NCBI GenBank assembly: GCA_029981855.1
Contig: JARRCS010000003.1
Location: 1-64,000, forward strand
DNA length: 64,000 nucleotides
Direction of reading: 5' to 3'
Source: Halanaerobiales bacterium
Lineage (GTDB): Bacteria; Bacillota; Halanaerobiia; Halanaerobiales; DTU029
Below, piece by piece: positions 8,960-64,000 of this stretch. The position numbers were made by a program, and so were the translations under genes. Below the pieces are notes generated by a model. The model was not told the origin of the DNA. It did no database searches and saw nothing but the letters and a program-made list of their open reading frames with translations. Within the stretch, counting starts at the first letter, position 1. Each line of letters opens with the position of its first letter.

Positions 8960-9403
8960 TTGAATTTACACGATTTGAAACCTGAGCATGGTGCAAAAAA
9001 GAAACGTAAACGTGTAGGCCGGGGAATGGGATCAGGTAGAGGTTATACCTCCGGTCGCGGTGCTAAAGGTCAGAAGGCCCGTTCGGGGGGAGGTGTCAGA
9101 CCGACCTTTGAAGGTGGCCAGACTCCCTTATTCAGAAGGATACCAAAACGTGGCTTTAATAATCGATTTAAAAAGGAATTTAATGAGGTCAACGTCTACC
9201 AGTTAAATAGATTTGCTGAGAATGAGGAGGTAACCCCGGAAAGACTGGTTGAAGTTGGGGTGATAGACTCCGTGGCCAAATCAGGGGTCAAGATTTTAGG
9301 AAATGGCGAGCTGGAGAAAGCATTAAAGGTTAAAGCTCATGCGTTTACTAAGTCAGCCCGGGGAAAGATAGAGGCTGCTGGCGGAAAGGCAGAGGTGATT
9401 TAA
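8960..9403 (+). CDS. rplO: 50S ribosomal protein L15
   Basis: A 147-residue L15, an early assembly protein. The glycine/arginine-rich N-terminal third ([18 protein letters not shown]) and the [15 protein letters not shown] motif are diagnostic. TTG at 8960 gives the normal MNLHDLKP start and lies 8 bases after AGGAGG at 8946-8951. secY follows after one base. Confidence 0.95.
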
Positions 9404-9404
9404 A

Positions 9405-10673
9405 TTGTTATCTGCTCTCGGTAACGCCTTTAAGGTTAAGGAATTAAGAAAAAAGATCCTCTTTGTTATTGCCATGATGGTTGTCTACCGGATTGGCGCC
9501 CATATTCCCGTTCCCAATGTTGATGTTGGCCTTTTACAGGAGAGATTATTCCGGGGAGGCCTGGGAGGGGTTTTTGACTTCCTGGATCTCTTTGCCGGTG
9601 GTGCCTTAAGGAATTTTACTATTTTTGCCATGAGTATTACACCCTATATTACCGCTTCAATTATCCTTCAGCTGTTGACAGGGGTTATCCCGGCCCTAGA
9701 GGAGCTATCAAGACAGGGTACTGAAGGAAGGAAGAAGATGACCCAGTATATCAGGTATGGTACTATAGTTCTGGCTGTAATTCAGGGTATCGGTATTACC
9801 CTGTATATTCAAAGGTTTGGTGCTGTTGTCAATCCTAATTTCTTTAATTTATTCCTGATTGTGATTAGTTTGACTGCCGGAACTGCTTTTTTAATGTGGC
9901 TGGGTGAGCAGATTACAGATAAAGGAATCGGTAATGGTATCTCTATTATTATCTTTACTTCTATTATAGCCAGATTTCCCGGTGATTTCTGGAATACCTG
10001 GAAGCTATTACGGGCAGGTACAATTTCGATTATCAATATTTTACTCTTTGTGGTACTGGCTGTTGTCATTATTGCAGGTATTGTCTTTATCCAACAGGGT
10101 GAGAGAAGGATTCCGGTACAGTACTCAAAAAGGATTGTTGGGAGAAGGGTTTATGGGGGTAGAAGCACCCATATTCCCATGAGGATTAATCAGGCCGGGG
10201 TTATTCCGGTTATCTTTGCCTCCTCGGTCCTCATGTTCCCCGCAGTTATTGCCCAGGTTCTCCCTTTTGACTGGAGCCAGACGGTTGCTGATATGTTAAG
10301 ACCTGGTTCGACACTATATCTGACCCTGTATGGATTGATGATTCTCTTCTTTACCTACTTCTGGACTGCTTTTACCTTTAATCCGGAAGAGGTAGCCGAT
10401 AATATGCGGAAATATGGAGGATTTATACCGGGGATTAGACCAGGCAAGGCTACAGTTAATTATCTGGAGAGGGTGCTTGTCAGGGTAACCCTGGCCGGGG
10501 CAATTTTCTTGACGGTTATAGCGCTCCTGCCTTTCTTTGTGGGAAGTTGGACCGGTGTAACCATCAGTTTCGGAGGAACATCTCTCTTGATTATGATCGG
10601 TGTGGCCTTGCAGACGATGCAGCAGATAGAATCCCATCTCTTGATGAGACATTATGAAGGATTTATGAAATAA
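9405..10673 (+). CDS. secY: Preprotein translocase subunit SecY
   Basis: A 422-residue integral membrane protein with about ten hydrophobic segments, the pore of the Sec channel. Family signatures include GIGNGISIIIF in the middle and the cytoplasmic loop ending RPGKATVNYLERVL before the last segments. TTG start at 9405 with AGAGGTGA upstream, one base after rplO, so it is co-translated with the ribosomal genes as usual. Confidence 0.97.
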   Translation: MLSALGNAFKVKELRKKILFVIAMMVVYRIGAHIPVPNVDVGLLQERLFRGGLGGVFDFLDLFAGGALRNFTIFAMSITPYITASIILQLLTGVIPALEELSRQGTEGRKKMTQYIRYGTIVLAVIQGIGITLYIQRFGAVVNPNFFNLFLIVISLTAGTAFLMWLGEQITDKGIGNGISIIIFTSIIARFPGDFWNTWKLLRAGTISIINILLFVVLAVVIIAGIVFIQQGERRIPVQYSKRIVGRRVYGGRSTHIPMRINQAGVIPVIFASSVLMFPAVIAQVLPFDWSQTVADMLRPGSTLYLTLYGLMILFFTYFWTAFTFNPEEVADNMRKYGGFIPGIRPGKATVNYLERVLVRVTLAGAIFLTVIALLPFFVGSWTGVTISFGGTSLLIMIGVALQTMQQIESHLLMRHYEGFMK

Positions 10674-10730
10674 AATTTCCAAACATCTCTTCAACATCTA
10701 TTTGCAGTTAATTGCCGAAATAAGAGTATA
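10673..10730 (+). repeat. Dispersed modular repeat, 3' half, after secY
   Basis: Contains AAAATTTCCAAACATCTCTT, then the right terminal repeat AACATCTATTTGCAG and an ATTGCCGAAATAAGAGT-like tail. The left terminal repeat is absent. It begins at the secY stop codon and lies upstream of the adk promoter candidate. Confidence 0.6.
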
Positions 10731-14430: not shown

Positions 14431-14443
14431 TTATGCCTTTGAA

Positions 14444-14585
14444 CTACAAATAGATGTTTTCGATTGCAGAAACCTTCTTTTTACTTACGCAAGGATGGTT
14501 TCTGCACTAGGCCATTGAGGCCGTCGTCAAACATCTCTTTAACATCTATTTGCAGTTTTCGCAGAACAATAGTGAGGCATTATTC
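14444..14585 (+). repeat. Dispersed modular repeat, full copy before rpoA
   Basis: The left terminal repeat CTACAAATAGATGTT (14444-14458) and right terminal repeat AACATCTATTTGCAG (14541-14555) form a 15-bp inverted pair with one T-for-C difference. Inside are a 10-bp stem hairpin (14465-14474 with 14497-14506, TTACGCAAGGAT in the loop), a GGCC/GGCC mini-hairpin, and CAAACATCTCTT. A 3' tail containing AGTGAGGCATTATT ends 6 bp before the rpoA binding site. Confidence 0.75.
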
Positions 14586-25727: not shown

Positions 25728-25787
25728 ATAGTATGCCCGCATTTCCGGGCAAGGCTTTAAAGGGGGTGATAGACATCAAAAAAACAA

Positions 25788-25950
25788 GTTAAAGCGCCTG
25801 AACTTGGATGGGTACGGCAATAGACATCCAAGTCGACGAGGATGGGGGTTATCGAGTTGTTCGGCGGATGCCCTCAGGTCTACCTTGCCAGGCCTAAAGT
25901 TATTCCTCAAACCCGTTAAGTGATTAGCGGTTTAAAGGGAATTAACAGGC
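25788..25950 (+). ncRNA. glmS ribozyme (glucosamine-6-phosphate-activated)
   Basis: The core glmS ribozyme sequences are present: AGCGCC at the cleavage site (predicted cut between A25793 and G25794), the GACGAGGATGGGGGTTATCG core, TTCGGCGGATGCC, and a P4-like helix pairing AAACCCG/GCGGTTT at the 3' end. Glucosamine-6-phosphate binding triggers self-cleavage, exposing the downstream mRNA to degradation and lowering GlmS. It lies in the 435-bp gap before glmS, between promoter and start codon, as in other Firmicutes. The first part of the gap (25554-25698) holds nothing I recognise. Confidence 0.95.
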
Positions 25951-25988
25951 AGGGGAAAATTAAATATTGATACGGGGGGTAATCTATT

Positions 25989-37110: not shown

Positions 37111-37193
37111 AATTTCCAAACATCTCTCTAACATCTGTTTGCAGTTGTTTGAAGGTAAAGTAAGTTGCCGAACGGAGTGAGGCATTAATTTAA
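37111..37193 (+). repeat. Dispersed modular repeat, 3' half before asparaginase gene
   Basis: AATTTCCAAACATCTCTC, then the right terminal repeat AACATCTGTTTGCAG. The best-preserved 3' module follows: TTGTTTGAAGGTAAAGTAAG, TTGCCGAACGGAGTGAGGC and ATTAATTTAA, ending 10 bp before the start codon of the next gene. Confidence 0.7.
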
Positions 37194-38409: not shown

Positions 38410-38702
38410 TCAAATATAAGTATATATCGAAATTAAAGACTGAGAACAGGATAAGTAACTAAAATGGTATTTTTAGCGAGCCGGAGATGGTGTGAGCCCG
38501 GTAATTAACCATTTTAGTGAAACCCGCCTGGGAGTCGTAGGCTGAAAAAAGAGTAAGCCTTACCGGCAGTCAGCCGTTACCCTGATAGGTTATTGTAGGG
38601 CGGAGACTCTTCTCTACAGTAACTGAAAAGAGTGAACCTTTCGGTTAATTAGGATGGTACCGCGGGATAACCCTCGTTCCTTATCTGGAACGGGGGTTTT
38701 TT
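38410..38702 (+). ncRNA. T-box leader, proline specifier
   Basis: A complete T-box: Stem I with the AGCGAGCCGGAGATGGTGTGAGCC region, a specifier region GTGAAACCCGCCTGGGAGT, the T-box sequence ATTAGGATGGTACCGCGG near 38648-38665 (which binds the tRNA acceptor end), and a terminator CGTTCC/GGAACG plus T-run at about 38669-38702. The specifier reads CCC or CCG depending on alignment; both are proline. Uncharged tRNA-Pro would favour antitermination and expression of proB-proA. Confidence 0.95.
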
Positions 38703-55586: not shown

Positions 55587-55755
55587 CTACAAATAGATGT
55601 TTCCGAAGCTCACCACCTCCTGTGGTTTGGCCTAATTTTTAGCTCCGATTTACTAAGGCTCATTCACAAAAATTTCTAAAATCTCTTCAACATCTATTTG
55701 TAGTTGTTTGAAGTAAAGCAATTTGCCGCACAGAAGAGGTATTAAATTAAATATA
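55587..55755 (+). repeat. Dispersed modular repeat, full copy in guaA leader
   Basis: Perfect 15-bp terminal inverted repeats: CTACAAATAGATGTT (55587-55601) and AACATCTATTTGTAG (55689-55703), 117 bp end to end. Inside are an ACCAC/GTGGT hairpin, the GGCCTAATTTTTAGCTCC block shared with the rplB copy, and AAAATTTCTAAAATCTCTTC. The 3' module TTGTTTGAAGTAAAGCAATTTGCCGC...GAGGTATTAAATTAA then leads to the guaA binding site. Confidence 0.8.
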
Positions 55756-59146: not shown

Positions 59147-59164
59147 TTGTTATTTTTTTAACAA
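59147..59164 (+). promoter_or_regulatory. rex operator: Rex operator 1
   Basis: TTGTTA, six T's, TAACAA: an 18-bp palindrome (arms extend to ATATTGTTA/TAACAATAT) matching the Rex consensus TTGT(T/G)A-N6-T(A/C)ACAA. It sits just downstream of the -10 box, a roadblock or occlusion position. rex itself is encoded 3.4 kb downstream. Confidence 0.82.
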
Positions 59165-59185: not shown

Positions 59186-59233
59186 ATACTAATGAAAAAT
59201 AAATTTGTTACTGGGTCATCACAGGGGGTGGGA

Positions 59234-59476
59234 ATGATTACTATAACGGTCTGTATTGGAAGCGGTTGTCATGTTAAGGGTTCACGTACTATTATCAGTA
59301 TTTTAAAGGATTATAGAGAAAAACATGATCTGGAGATGGAGATAGCTCTAAAGGCCTGTTTTTGCCAGAACCGGTGTACTGAAGGTGTAGTCGTCAAATT
59401 TGATGAGGAGATTGTTACGGGTGTCAGCAAGGATAATGTAATTGAGATTCTGGAAGAGAGATTAGATATAGATTAA
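59234..59476 (+). CDS. Thioredoxin-like [2Fe-2S] ferredoxin
   Basis: An 80-residue NuoE/HydC-like protein: cluster ligands C7 and C12 (CIGSGC) and C44 and C48 (CFCQNRC), the C-x4-C / C-x3-C spacing of thioredoxin-like 2Fe-2S proteins. Likely passes electrons to or from the following hydrogenase homologue. I chose ATG 59234, which has AGGGGGTGGG upstream; the frame from 59192 lacks a binding site. Confidence 0.85.
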   Translation: MITITVCIGSGCHVKGSRTIISILKDYREKHDLEMEIALKACFCQNRCTEGVVVKFDEEIVTGVSKDNVIEILEERLDID

Positions 59477-59532: not shown

Positions 59533-61281
59533 ATGGGTACGATTGTAACCAGTGAGGCCAAATGTAGAGATTGTTATAAATGTATACGGTATTGCCCGGT
59601 CAAGGCGATTGGTATCAATGAAGAACAGGCCTGGGTTGTAGAGGAGAAGTGTATCCTCTGCGGGAAGTGTGTTGAGGTCTGTCCACAAAATGCCAAGAGT
59701 ACGGTGTCATACCTCTCTGAGTTTACAGACTATCTAGCAGAAGAAAGTCAGGTAGTTGTCAGCCTGGCCCCTTCTTATCTCGCAGCTACTCCCTACTCTA
59801 CTCCCTGGAAGCTCGTTGCAGGGCTAAAGGAACTGGGGGTCGATCTGGTGGAAGAAACTGCCCTGGGAGCGGAGATTATTAGCCGTGAATATCAGCGGTT
59901 CTTTAAGAATAAATCTCATGAGCCCCTTATTTCCAGCTGCTGTCCGACGATTGTCAGGCTAGTTGAAAGGTATTATCCTGAACTGGTAGATTCGGTAGCA
60001 CCCCTGATCTCTCCCATGATTGCTCATGCCCGAAAGATTAAACAGGAGAAGGGTAAAGATACCAGAGTGGTATTTATCGGCCCCTGTTTTAGTAAAAAGG
60101 ATGAGCCTGACTGGCAGGATAAGGATAACCCCGTTGATCTCGTCCTGGATTTTCAAGAAATTATCAATTACTTTGAGAAATCAGGTATTAACCCCGAAAT
60201 GTTAGAGGACAGGTATCCTGATCTGCCCTCTAAAATGGCCAGGCTTTATCCTCTGGAGGGGGGAATTTTAGAGGTTTCCGGTATCGATAACAGGGTCGGG
60301 GAAGTGATCTCTGTCTCCGGGGTAGATGAAGCTATGGAGGTCTTTGAGGATATGGTTAAAGGTCTGATTAACCCCCGGTTTGTAGAGGCACTGGCCTGTA
60401 AGGGTGGTTGTATTGGAGGACCGGCTATGGCCAATGATCTCGGTATTGCTACCAGAAGACAGAGAATAAGTGAATTCATGAACAAACTCCCCGATTTTTT
60501 CCAGGAGACAGAGGAAGTCCCTTCCGGGAGGGTGGAAGATAGTGAAATAAAATTCCCTTTAACGAAGGAACATTCTCCAGATAGATTTAAAAGCGAAACC
60601 CCCTCTGAAGCTGAGATCAGGGAGATCCTGGCCCTGACCGGCAAGGTGACCCCTGAAGATGAAACCAACTGCGGAGGGTGTGGCTACCCCAGTTGCCGGG
60701 AGAAGGCAATAGCCGTCTACCAGGGTCTGGCCAAACCCGAGATGTGTGTACCTTATATGAGGGAGAAGGCTGAATCTTTATCTCATGCAGTTGTAGATAG
60801 TTCATTAAATGGGATTATCATAGTTGATGAGGATATGATCATTCAGGAATTTAACCCCGCTGCCAACCGGATGTTTAACCGGAAGGGGATTAAAAGTAAG
60901 GGGAAACCCCTTAAAACCTTTATTGATCCGGCCGATTATGAGTATGTCAGGGATAATCAGGAGATGATTGTTAATAAATTTAAGGAATATGAACAGTACG
61001 GGTTGATAACCAGAGAAAATATCTATCCCCTGGAAAAATACGGAGTGGTGATAGCCATTATTACAGATGTTACCGAGGAGGAGAAGAGGAAGGCCGAGGT
61101 AGATAAGATGAAGGAAGAGGCCTTGAACAGGGCATCAAGGGTTATTCGCGAACAGATGAAGGTAGCCCAGGAGATTGCCGGTTTACTTGGGGAGAGTACG
61201 GCAGAGACTAAAGCAACCCTTTTAGAATTAATTGAGATTATGAATACGAAAGAGGCGAGGGTAATTGGAGATCAAAGTTGA
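59533..61281 (+). CDS. hydS: [FeFe]-hydrogenase-like protein with PAS domain (sensory type)
   Basis: A 582-residue protein. Two 4Fe-4S ferredoxin clusters (C11/14/17/21 and C40/43/46/50) lead into an H-cluster domain with SSCCPTI (C136, C137), GPCFSKK (C185) and ACKGGCIGG (C289, C293), so the H-cluster ligands are retained. A further cysteine motif (C380, C383, C388, C405) and a PAS domain (about 415-520) end it. This is the layout of putative H2- or redox-sensing hydrogenases, not of the main H2 producer. ATG behind AAACGGAGG. Confidence 0.87.
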   Translation: MGTIVTSEAKCRDCYKCIRYCPVKAIGINEEQAWVVEEKCILCGKCVEVCPQNAKSTVSYLSEFTDYLAEESQVVVSLAPSYLAATPYSTPWKLVAGLKELGVDLVEETALGAEIISREYQRFFKNKSHEPLISSCCPTIVRLVERYYPELVDSVAPLISPMIAHARKIKQEKGKDTRVVFIGPCFSKKDEPDWQDKDNPVDLVLDFQEIINYFEKSGINPEMLEDRYPDLPSKMARLYPLEGGILEVSGIDNRVGEVISVSGVDEAMEVFEDMVKGLINPRFVEALACKGGCIGGPAMANDLGIATRRQRISEFMNKLPDFFQETEEVPSGRVEDSEIKFPLTKEHSPDRFKSETPSEAEIREILALTGKVTPEDETNCGGCGYPSCREKAIAVYQGLAKPEMCVPYMREKAESLSHAVVDSSLNGIIIVDEDMIIQEFNPAANRMFNRKGIKSKGKPLKTFIDPADYEYVRDNQEMIVNKFKEYEQYGLITRENIYPLEKYGVVIAIITDVTEEEKRKAEVDKMKEEALNRASRVIREQMKVAQEIAGLLGESTAETKATLLELIEIMNTKEARVIGDQS

Positions 61282-62419
61282 CGTAGGTATTGCCAGCATC
61301 TCTAAGCAGGGTGAAGAGGTTTGTGGGGATACTACCCGGGTAATCGAAACTGGGGAGTCGACCACGGTTATTCTCTCCGACGGACTGGGCAGCGGAATTA
61401 AGGCTAGTATCCTCTCTATCCTCTCTACCCAGATTGCAGCTAGACTTTTAAAGACTAATCTCGGTCTGGAACAGGTCTTTGCCACTATTGCCGATACCCT
61501 ACCTATTTGTAGGGTTAGGGACATAGCCTATTCCACCCTATCGATATTAAAAATATCAAAGGATGGGAAGGCCCATCTAATTGAGTATGATAACCCTTCA
61601 CTTATTCTGATTAGAAATAATGAGCTGGTTCCTGTTAAAAAAAGAAAGCGGACTATTGCCGGTAAGGATATTGATGAAGCCTTTTTTGAAGTGGAAGTAG
61701 GAGATATCTTACTGCTTGTCAGTGATGGAGTCATAAATGCCGGCGTTGGTGGCCTTTTCGACCTGGGTCTGGGTAGGGACCGGTTACTGGAAAATATCTT
61801 TAAGAGGGATCTCTACAGGGAAGAAGCAGAGGAACTGGCTAAAAAGATAATCGGCCTGACCGAGGCTTGTTATCTCGGTAAACCCGGAGATGACTCTACC
61901 AGTATTGTGGTCAAACCGAGAAAGCTAAGATCTGTTACGGTCCTTACTGGACCACCGGAGGATAGAAAACTTGACAGGGAGGTTGTAAAAAGGTTTCTTG
62001 ATTTTAAGGATAGTGAAAAGATTATCTGTGGAGGAGCTACCGGAAACATGGTTGCCCGGGAGATGGATTCTGAGATTGAAACAAGTCTGGAGTATATTGA
62101 TTCAAGTGTGCCTCCAGTCGCTTCTATTGAAGGAATTGACCTGGTTACTGAAGGAATTTTGACCCTTAATAAATCCTTTGAGATGTTAAATCATGTTGCC
62201 GAAGGGGGTAAACTGGAGGATTCAGCTGATGGAGCAACGGCTTTAAGTAGAAGGCTTTTAAAGGCAGATATGATTAGATTTATTATGGGAAGGGCAGTTA
62301 ATCCCGCCCATGAAGAGTTAATGCAATCTTTACAGCTTAAACCGAGACCTGAAATTGTGGGAAAAATGGTTAAACAATTAAGGAAAATGGGAAAGAATGT
62401 AGATATTGAAGTTTATTAA
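61265..62419 (+). CDS. SpoIIE-type serine phosphatase
   Basis: A 384-residue protein whose first about 220 residues form a SpoIIE/PP2C domain: VCGDTTRV near 19, VILSDGLGSGIKAS near 35 and LLVSDGVINAG near 155, with GDDSTSIVV near 206 supplying the metal-binding aspartates. The remaining about 160 residues are unassigned. TTG 61265 overlaps the hydrogenase-like gene, so the phosphatase is translationally coupled and is the probable signalling output of that sensor. Confidence 0.82.
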   Translation: MEIKVDVGIASISKQGEEVCGDTTRVIETGESTTVILSDGLGSGIKASILSILSTQIAARLLKTNLGLEQVFATIADTLPICRVRDIAYSTLSILKISKDGKAHLIEYDNPSLILIRNNELVPVKKRKRTIAGKDIDEAFFEVEVGDILLLVSDGVINAGVGGLFDLGLGRDRLLENIFKRDLYREEAEELAKKIIGLTEACYLGKPGDDSTSIVVKPRKLRSVTVLTGPPEDRKLDREVVKRFLDFKDSEKIICGGATGNMVAREMDSEIETSLEYIDSSVPPVASIEGIDLVTEGILTLNKSFEMLNHVAEGGKLEDSADGATALSRRLLKADMIRFIMGRAVNPAHEELMQSLQLKPRPEIVGKMVKQLRKMGKNVDIEVY

Positions 62420-62420
62420 C

Positions 62421-62452
62421 AAAAATTTCCAAACATCTCTCCAACATCTATT
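62421..62452 (+). repeat. Dispersed modular repeat, right-end fragment
   Basis: AAAAATTTCCAAACATCTCTCC and AACATCTATT: the right part of the repeat, ending at exactly the point where hydrogenase-type coding sequence begins. Confidence 0.7.
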
Positions 62453-62617
62453 AGTGATTGTATCACTTTATTAAGAAAGATTGCAGCCGGTAAGGTTGAA
62501 GCTGATTTTATAGAAGGAATGGGCTGTCAGGAGGGATGTATAGGCGGTCCGGGTACCCTGGTAAATCCCAGGGTGGCCAGGAGAGTTTTAGAAGGAGGGA
62601 TAAGTGATGTTAGGTGA
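62453..62617 (+). pseudogene. [FeFe]-hydrogenase C-terminal remnant
   Basis: An open frame directly after the repeat reads SDCITLLRKIAAGKVEADF, then IEGMGCQEGCIGGPGTL and NPRVARRVLEGGISDVR. EGMGCxxGCIGGPG is the last H-cluster motif of catalytic [FeFe] hydrogenases. Only about 54 codons remain, with no start and none of the earlier motifs. The frame ends inside the rex start, so rex was once translationally coupled to this hydrogenase. Confidence 0.82.
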
Positions 62618-63260
62618 GCAGAAAAAGAAGGAGAGGGCAATACCTGTGAGTGTCATTAAAAGACTACCGATATACTACCGTTATCTAACTATATTATTAT
62701 CGAGGGAGGTTGAGAGGATATCCTCCCGCGAACTGGCTGCTAAGTTAGGGTTAACAGCTTCTCAGATCAGACAGGACCTCAGTTATTTCGGTAATTTCGG
62801 CCAGCGGGGATATGGGTACAGGGTGAAAGAGTTACAGAAGACTATCGGCGAGATTCTGGGATTAAACAATAACATGCAGCTGGTTCTGGTTGGAGCAGGT
62901 AATCTGGGCAGAGCAATAGTCAACTACCCCAATTTTAGCAAAAGAGGGTTTTATTTCAAGGCTATTTTTGATAATAATGAGGAAGTTATCGGTGAGTTTA
63001 TCGGTGGAATTAAGGTTCTTCACCTGGATGATTTAGCCGGTTATCTGGAGGAGAATGAGATCGATATCGGGGTGATTGCTACTCCCCCTGAGGCGGCGGC
63101 TGAGATTGCCCACCAGCTTGTCAGGGGAGGGGTCAAGGGTATCTGGAACTTTGCCCCGGTAAGTCTAAATCTGGATAAGGAGGTGATAGTAGAGAATGTC
63201 CATATTAGCGAGAGTTTACTGACCCTTTCTTTTAGAATTAAAGAGAAGTATGGTGATTAA
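62607..63260 (+). CDS. rex: Redox-sensing transcriptional repressor Rex
   Basis: A 217-residue repressor that senses the NADH/NAD+ ratio. N-terminal winged helix with RLPIYYRYLTILL and SSRELAAKLGLTASQIRQDLSYFG (residues about 39-62), the Rossmann motif LVGAGNLGRAI near 92, and IGVIATPPEAA near 152. ATG 62607 behind GAAGGAGGG. It probably acts on the two operators at 59147-59185, making an autoregulated redox operon. Confidence 0.96.
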   Translation: MLGEQKKKERAIPVSVIKRLPIYYRYLTILLSREVERISSRELAAKLGLTASQIRQDLSYFGNFGQRGYGYRVKELQKTIGEILGLNNNMQLVLVGAGNLGRAIVNYPNFSKRGFYFKAIFDNNEEVIGEFIGGIKVLHLDDLAGYLEENEIDIGVIATPPEAAAEIAHQLVRGGVKGIWNFAPVSLNLDKEVIVENVHISESLLTLSFRIKEKYGD

Positions 63261-63290
63261 CTGATAAGATTGATAAGATTATAAACCACT

Positions 63291-63518
63291 ACGGAGGGTG
63301 TCAGTAATCTGATCAAGGCTATTCAGGATTTAATGCAGGAGTTAAATATTCCTTCCACCCTGGCAGAGTGTGGTGTTGATAAAGAGAGCTTTAAAAAGGA
63401 ACTTGATGAGATGGCAGATATTGCCTTTAACGACCAGTGTACAGGAACCAATCCGCGGATGCCTCTGGTTTCCGAGATCAAGGAGATTTACCTGGAGGCC
63501 TTCGGAGAAAAAATATAG
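63291..63518 (+). pseudogene. Iron alcohol dehydrogenase (AdhE-type) C-terminal remnant
   Basis: About 75 codons reading LIKAIQDLMQELNIPSTLAE through MADIAFNDQCTGTNPRMP to IYLEAFGEKI. CTGTNPR-P near the end is the signature of the C-terminal iron-dependent alcohol dehydrogenase domain of AdhE and related enzymes. No catalytic part or start remains. It follows rex by 30 bp; adhE genes are frequent Rex targets. Confidence 0.8.
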
Positions 63519-63524
63519 TAAATT

Positions 63525-63583
63525 GTATTTGTAGTTGTTTGAAGGTAAAGTAAATTGCCAAACAAAGTGAGACATTAATTTAA
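63525..63583 (+). repeat. Dispersed modular repeat, 3' module after AdhE remnant
   Basis: TATTTGTAG followed by TTGTTTGAAGGTAAAGTAAA, TTGCCAAACAAAGTGAGAC and ATTAATTTAA, nearly identical to the copy before the asparaginase gene. Confidence 0.7.
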
Positions 63584-63755: not shown

Positions 63756-64000
63756 ATGGAGAATATCGTAATTAAGGTATTAAAAACCGATCTTTTAATT
63801 ATTGGTGGGGGAACCGCCGGCTGTCTGGCAGCAGTGGAAGCCAAAGAGAGAGCACCTGAGATTGATGTGCTAATTTTAGAAAAAGCCCATATTGAACGGA
63901 GTGGTTGTTTAGCAGCAGGGATGAATGCGATCAATGCTTACATAAATCCCGGGGAAACCCCTGAAAGTTTTGTGAGATATGTCCGGGCTGATGCTATGGG
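63756..64000 (+). CDS. AprA/fumarate-reductase-like flavoprotein subunit (partial)
   Basis: The first 81 codons of a gene running out of the window. The FAD-binding GGGTAGCLAAVEA dinucleotide fold starts near residue 17. SGCLAAGMNAINAY and ETPESFVRYVRADAMG resemble the adenylylsulfate-reductase alpha/fumarate reductase flavoprotein family. Which oxidoreductase it is cannot be decided from this part. ATG 63756 with GGGGGG 12 bases upstream. Confidence 0.78.
   Translation, partial: MENIVIKVLKTDLLIIGGGTAGCLAAVEAKERAPEIDVLILEKAHIERSGCLAAGMNAINAYINPGETPESFVRYVRADAM

Follow-up and report, generated by a model that had tools for sequence, protein, structure and literature searches.

Towards the 3′ end of the window (the whole 64,000 nt stretch analysed, positions 1 to 64,000 of contig JARRCS010000003.1 from Halanaerobiales bacterium assembly GCA_029981855.1) lies a cluster of plus-strand genes that keeps the operator, TRX1, hydS, spoIIE and rex of an ancestral operon. 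The operator, which precedes the operon at 59147..59164, is a perfect inverted repeat (TTGTTA-N6-TAACAA). TRX1, the intact first gene (59192..59476), encodes a thioredoxin-like [2Fe-2S] protein (PF01257, E 3e-7; 69% to its ortholog in G001, a genome of the same family). It is followed by two further intact genes: one for a HydS-type sensory hydrogenase-PAS protein (59533..61281; PF02906 with FeS and PAS regions; 61-65% to G001 and to G012, a Halothermothrix orenii-like genome), and one for a SpoIIE-type phosphatase (61265..62419; PF07228; 64-69% to the same two genomes), which has a conserved C-terminus and runs to its native stop codon, TAA at 62417-62419. Further downstream, and intact between two gene remnants as the earlier note on this DNA had described it, rex (62604..63260) encodes a full-length redox-sensing repressor of 218 aa, with winged-helix (PF06971) and NAD-binding (PF02629) domains above the curated cut-off and an NF003990 score of 300.6 bits (cut-off 233). 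Its identity is 67% to the G001 ortholog and 64% to that of G012. The window closes on the start of an adenylylsulfate-reductase-alpha-like (AprA-like) gene (63756..64000; NF005331 841 bits, cut-off 557, over L085:1757-3469). Elsewhere in the window, an Rfam search located a T-box leader and a glmS riboswitch-ribozyme, at 38433-38684 and 25782-25956.

Gene-order comparison revealed an ancestral-type arrangement, TRX1-hydS-spoIIE-TRX2-hydA-rex-adhE, as one intact operon in G001, G012 and a third relative, G044, and in each case the exact Rex operator precedes it. In these genomes hydA (490-503 aa) is placed between spoIIE/TRX2 and rex, and adhE (866-887 aa) lies 3′ of rex. HydA scores 514 bits in G001 and 561 bits in G012 with TIGR04105 (cut-off 450), and G001 AdhE scores 1396 bits with NF010378 (cut-off 951). 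TRX2-hydA is intact behind the hydS-spoIIE pair in 19 fetched genomes of the class. The G012 locus shares the gene order, operator and neighbours of the window, including the AprA-like gene, which is the next gene after adhE in G012 and 79% identical to that of the window; unlike the window, G012 has TRX2, hydA and adhE intact and is free of the window's repeat family, described below. The authors of the Halothermothrix orenii genome report fermentation genes to ethanol and acetate (PMC2626281), and group B1 monomeric [FeFe] hydrogenases of other bacteria are active H2-producing enzymes (PMC12578642). In three genomes of family f3 (G026, G030 and G033; L254, L256 and L259), adhE lies upstream of TRX1-hydS-spoIIE-TRX2-hydA and not downstream of rex, so that the link between adhE and the hydrogenase cassette exists in two arrangements. 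A scan of genome contigs returned no second genome of the species and no named close relative with an intact rex-adhE part, and the case made here rests on one genome and one assembly of the genus and species.

At the position of TRX2 and hydA, the window carries a 3′ remnant of a group B1 monomeric [FeFe] hydrogenase gene (62450..62617), comprising approximately its last 55 codons. This 55-aa piece matches the C-terminus of PF02906 (positions 213-245 of 245, E 2e-8, above cut-off) and shares 65% identity with residues 431-477 of G012 HydA. The interval between the spoIIE stop codon and hydA is filled exactly by 32 bp of repeat sequence, starting directly after the stop codon (62421..62452, plus strand; CAAAAATTTCCAAACATCTCTCCAACATCTATT). 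Homology to hydA begins at codon 62450 or 62453 and continues in frame to the stop codon at 62615-62617; the three bases of overlap (62450-62452, ATT) could belong to either repeat or hydA, and the earlier note's description of a repeat ending at 62452 and leading straight into an in-frame hydrogenase C-terminus is accurate to within a few bases. In the alignment to G012, the loss begins after the spoIIE stop and reaches hydA codon ~430, a total of ~1.57-1.6 kb that includes TRX2 and ~430 hydA codons. The missing part was found nowhere else in the genome (39 contigs, 100%-complete): a HydA query returned other hydrogenases at ≤37% identity over long stretches, and its sole close match (59%) was the tail itself. 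Together with the intact TRX2-hydA of G001, G012 and G044, this bears out the earlier proposal that the 5′ and central parts of the hydrogenase gene have been deleted. The start of rex overlaps the 3′ end of the hydA remnant.

On the other side of rex, a 24 bp spacer (63261..63284) is joined directly to the 3′ region of adhE, a junction defined by alignment to G001 and G012. The remnant of adhE (PRK13805; 63285..63518, plus strand; PF25137 positions 127-193 of 194, E 7e-13) comprises approximately the last 77 codons and shares 65-70% identity with intact AdhE C-termini. Its frame stays open from ~63285 until the TAG stop codon at 63516-63518. At the junction itself (~63283) the spacer meets adhE codon ~785-790 and no repeat sequence is present. 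Approximately 2.4 kb, or ~785 codons, has been lost from near the adhE start. An AdhE query against the same 39 contigs found paralogs and the tail itself, and the missing part was absent elsewhere in the genome. With adhE intact after rex in G001, G012 and G044, the suggestion that this gene too had lost its 5′ and central parts is upheld. As had also been noted, a repeat fragment follows the AdhE-type tail, 7 bp after its stop codon, from 63526.

Could these truncations instead be a false join at repeats during assembly, with the missing gene parts still present in the cell? Copies of the repeat are numerous, and the ends of several contigs fall in or close to one, which indicates that the repeat does break the assembly. 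However, the junctions fall in mid-repeat or at no repeat, and not across a whole shared repeat, and no contig of the 100%-complete assembly carries the missing hydA or adhE parts. We regard an assembly artefact as extremely improbable.

The two tails are stop-free in frame and their changes lie mostly at third codon positions; the adhE tail differs from G001 at 19, 11 and 43 first, second and third positions, and at the amino-acid level it is 65-68% identical, a value similar to those of rex and spoIIE. These features, and an ATG at 63333 that could start a 61-aa ORF in the adhE tail, might be taken to mean that selection maintains the tails as small functional genes or as regulatory segments, such as a small ferredoxin-like or AdhE-tail peptide. 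The full genes are conserved to the same degree, as would be expected had the loss been recent, and the open frames and third-position bias indicate a loss that is recent relative to the divergence from the relatives. Moreover, the hydA tail represents only part of the H-cluster domain, and the nucleotide- and metal-binding parts of AdhE are absent from the adhE tail. In none of the relatives compared was either tail seen as a separate, independently conserved small gene, the finding that the earlier note had named as counting against deletion; the intact hydA between phosphatase and rex and the intact adhE after rex, the comparison it had recommended, confirm deletion. A selected function for the tails is very improbable. 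They are more simply passive leftovers; the one portion that would still matter is the end of the hydA tail, as the leader of rex.

The fragments flanking the remnants belong to a repeat family with a full element of ~278 bp and a palindromic build, in which the inverted motifs AACTGCAAATAGATGTT and AACATCTATTTGCAGTT are accompanied by an outer left and an outer right part. The end motif of the repeat occurs in 186 exact copies genome-wide, and in 256 copies at ≤1 mismatch (0 in the reversed control). The same motif has zero copies in 37 relatives, and its confinement to the window genome among these marks the family as lineage-specific. A short palindromic form of the repeat folds at z -5.0, and an Rfam search of the repeat matched no RNA family. 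Truncated copies are numerous; frequently it is 5′ sequence that is missing, and the 3′ end is shared. Copies elsewhere in the window include those at 2142-2217, 10672-10714, 14443-14556, 37111-37193 and 55607-55750. The family is MITE-like, on the basis of its inverted terminal motifs and the high copy number of short non-coding elements. Prokaryotic MITEs and small mobile repeats, as reviewed in PMC10969869, are likewise short, non-coding and high-copy, with inverted terminal motifs and many truncated copies; unlike the MITEs of that review, the window repeat was not matched to a named family.

The left piece at the hydA junction corresponds to consensus positions 193-220 and matches ~39 other places in the genome, several of them at 97-100% over 32 bp. 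The right piece (63526..63583, plus strand; 89.7% to the consensus, E 2e-13) covers consensus 221-278. This right-hand piece lies outside adhE, beyond its intact stop codon, and therefore did not make the adhE deletion; the loss of adhE is an ordinary deletion without a repeat. At hydA, the repeat piece forms the junction, and is accordingly either a deletion endpoint or templated filler there. The earlier note had attributed both losses to recombination or insertion involving repeat copies; this mechanism is supported for hydA, where the repeat forms the joint, on evidence that remains circumstantial, and it is not supported for adhE, where the joint is free of repeat.

We consider that the locus is very probably what remains of a Rex-controlled fermentation operon after two deletions. 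One of these begins directly behind the stop codon of spoIIE and reaches hydA codon ~430; the other took most of adhE, beginning close to its start and ending at codon ~785-790. The comparisons show the ancestral gene order, the two losses with their junctions, the repeat family and the absence of replacements, and from these we infer the order of events, the mechanism at the hydA junction, the reason for keeping rex and the physiology. At the hydA joint, a repeat copy may have been inserted and then cut by the deletion, or filler may have been copied in during repair. Selection would have kept spoIIE to its last codon, and rex with its translation start inside the hydA 3′ end.

One observation counts against the two-deletion explanation. 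The two repeat pieces in the window are exactly complementary, in that consensus 193-220 and 221-278 together make up one standard copy, and under a uniform model such ends would arise by coincidence from two unrelated copies, matching within 2 bp, at a rate of ~7%. A single complex event is an alternative, in which one copy (consensus 193-278) was split and now contains the segment of hydA tail, rex and adhE tail; for example, recombination between repeats after spoIIE and after adhE could have taken out the region, with the 1.07-kb rex piece captured at the joint by templated insertion or template switching. In its favour, besides the exact fit of the pieces, other copies in the genome run precisely from consensus 193 to 278 (L004, L104). 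The two pieces have TATT in common where they meet, which does not prove a target-site duplication. We find this reading possible but doubtful. The rex gene has kept its ancestral position, with spoIIE on one side and the AprA-like gene on the other, which renders its separate re-insertion unparsimonious. The right piece can be placed last in a graded series of 5′-truncated copies with one 3′ end in common (L118 from consensus 210, L119 from 215); it looks like an ordinary 5′-truncated copy, the shortest of that series. In addition, a relative (G058) displays the same kind of hydA loss without any sequence between the spoIIE stop and hydA. A version in which a single rearrangement deleted the two genes yet re-captured rex, with a repeat that spreads by copying, for example from RNA, and also leaves filler at joints, appears improbable. 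Simple homologous recombination between two whole repeats was rejected because it would remove rex and leave one complete repeat. A tandem duplication with a later deletion was also rejected, since the copy on the right would then still have its left half.

The G058 locus (family f11; L080 ~9400-10150, minus strand) parallels the window under the two-deletion explanation. Its hydA begins at codon ~255 directly after the spoIIE stop, TRX2 is gone, and the hydA 3′ part is kept up to an intact rex, with no adhE after it. The G058 hydA pseudogene differs from the window remnant in being longer, in carrying a frameshift near codon 445, and in lacking repeat sequence at the junction. In the window and in G058 alike, the hydA deletion has its left edge immediately 3′ of the spoIIE stop codon and leaves rex untouched; the G058 loss is independent of that in the window. 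In the G058 relatives G053, G056 and G057, hydA is intact but rex is not followed by adhE; G017 has hydS-spoIIE without hydA. The losses in G058 and these related cases show that pruning of the operon is recurrent.

Why rex should stay is suggested by its operator. The site upstream of the operon is one of two exact genome matches to the inverted repeat, and the consensus published for Thermoanaerobacterium saccharolyticum Rex is NTTGTTANNNNNNTAACNNN (PMC5886521). The second perfect site (G000:C14:8083) lies ~370 bp upstream of nfnA/nfnB-like genes (L203:1500-2738), where its function is putative. A one-mismatch search gave 22 matches against 21 in the reversed control, and we therefore used only the two exact sites. 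Rex has probably survived because its targets remain, namely its own operon promoter and the nfnA/nfnB-like operon; furthermore, since rex starts inside the hydA 3′ end, a deletion that took hydA in its entirety would impair the expression of rex. Rex-regulated adhE/hydrogenase operons of Firmicutes, such as that of T. saccharolyticum (PMC5886521), combine the same regulator and TTGTTA-N6-TAACAA operator with neighbouring ethanol and hydrogen genes, whereas the window keeps rex and the operator but has lost its own hydrogenase and AdhE.

The earlier note had expected the deletions to change how the cell disposes of reducing power, and had advised a genome search for functional replacements. 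Three complete group A6 NADH-dependent [FeFe] hydrogenases remain in the genome, as does a further hydrogenase related to group B (below the TIGR04105 cut-off). With three complete A6 enzymes, the cell need not have lost its H2 output and probably still produces H2; a loss of all H2 production was rejected on the same ground. For AdhE the search returned no replacement: a genome search with PF00171 found only proA, which lies in the window, and no acylating aldehyde dehydrogenase is left. The expected change would consequently hold for the AdhE route to ethanol, which appears to be gone, and need not extend to H2. Near a group A6 hydrogenase cluster, outside the window (G000:C10:132001-134671; L081:4002-6671), an 889-aa protein combines a HydS-like [FeFe]-hydrogenase sensor region with the AAA and C-terminal regions of a sigma-54-type activator, and is possibly an H2- or redox-sensing activator.

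The locus is a case of real but ordinary gene loss in a halophilic fermenter. It offers a clean example of the pruning of a redox-regulated fermentation operon, in which regulator and operator stay, the enzymes go, and the exact joints are visible. The organism keeps other, bifurcating-type hydrogenases, and its predicted product profile is one without ethanol via AdhE and with H2 kept. Taken with the loss in G058, these deletions suggest that halophilic anaerobes can repeatedly dispense with this group B1 hydrogenase and with AdhE.
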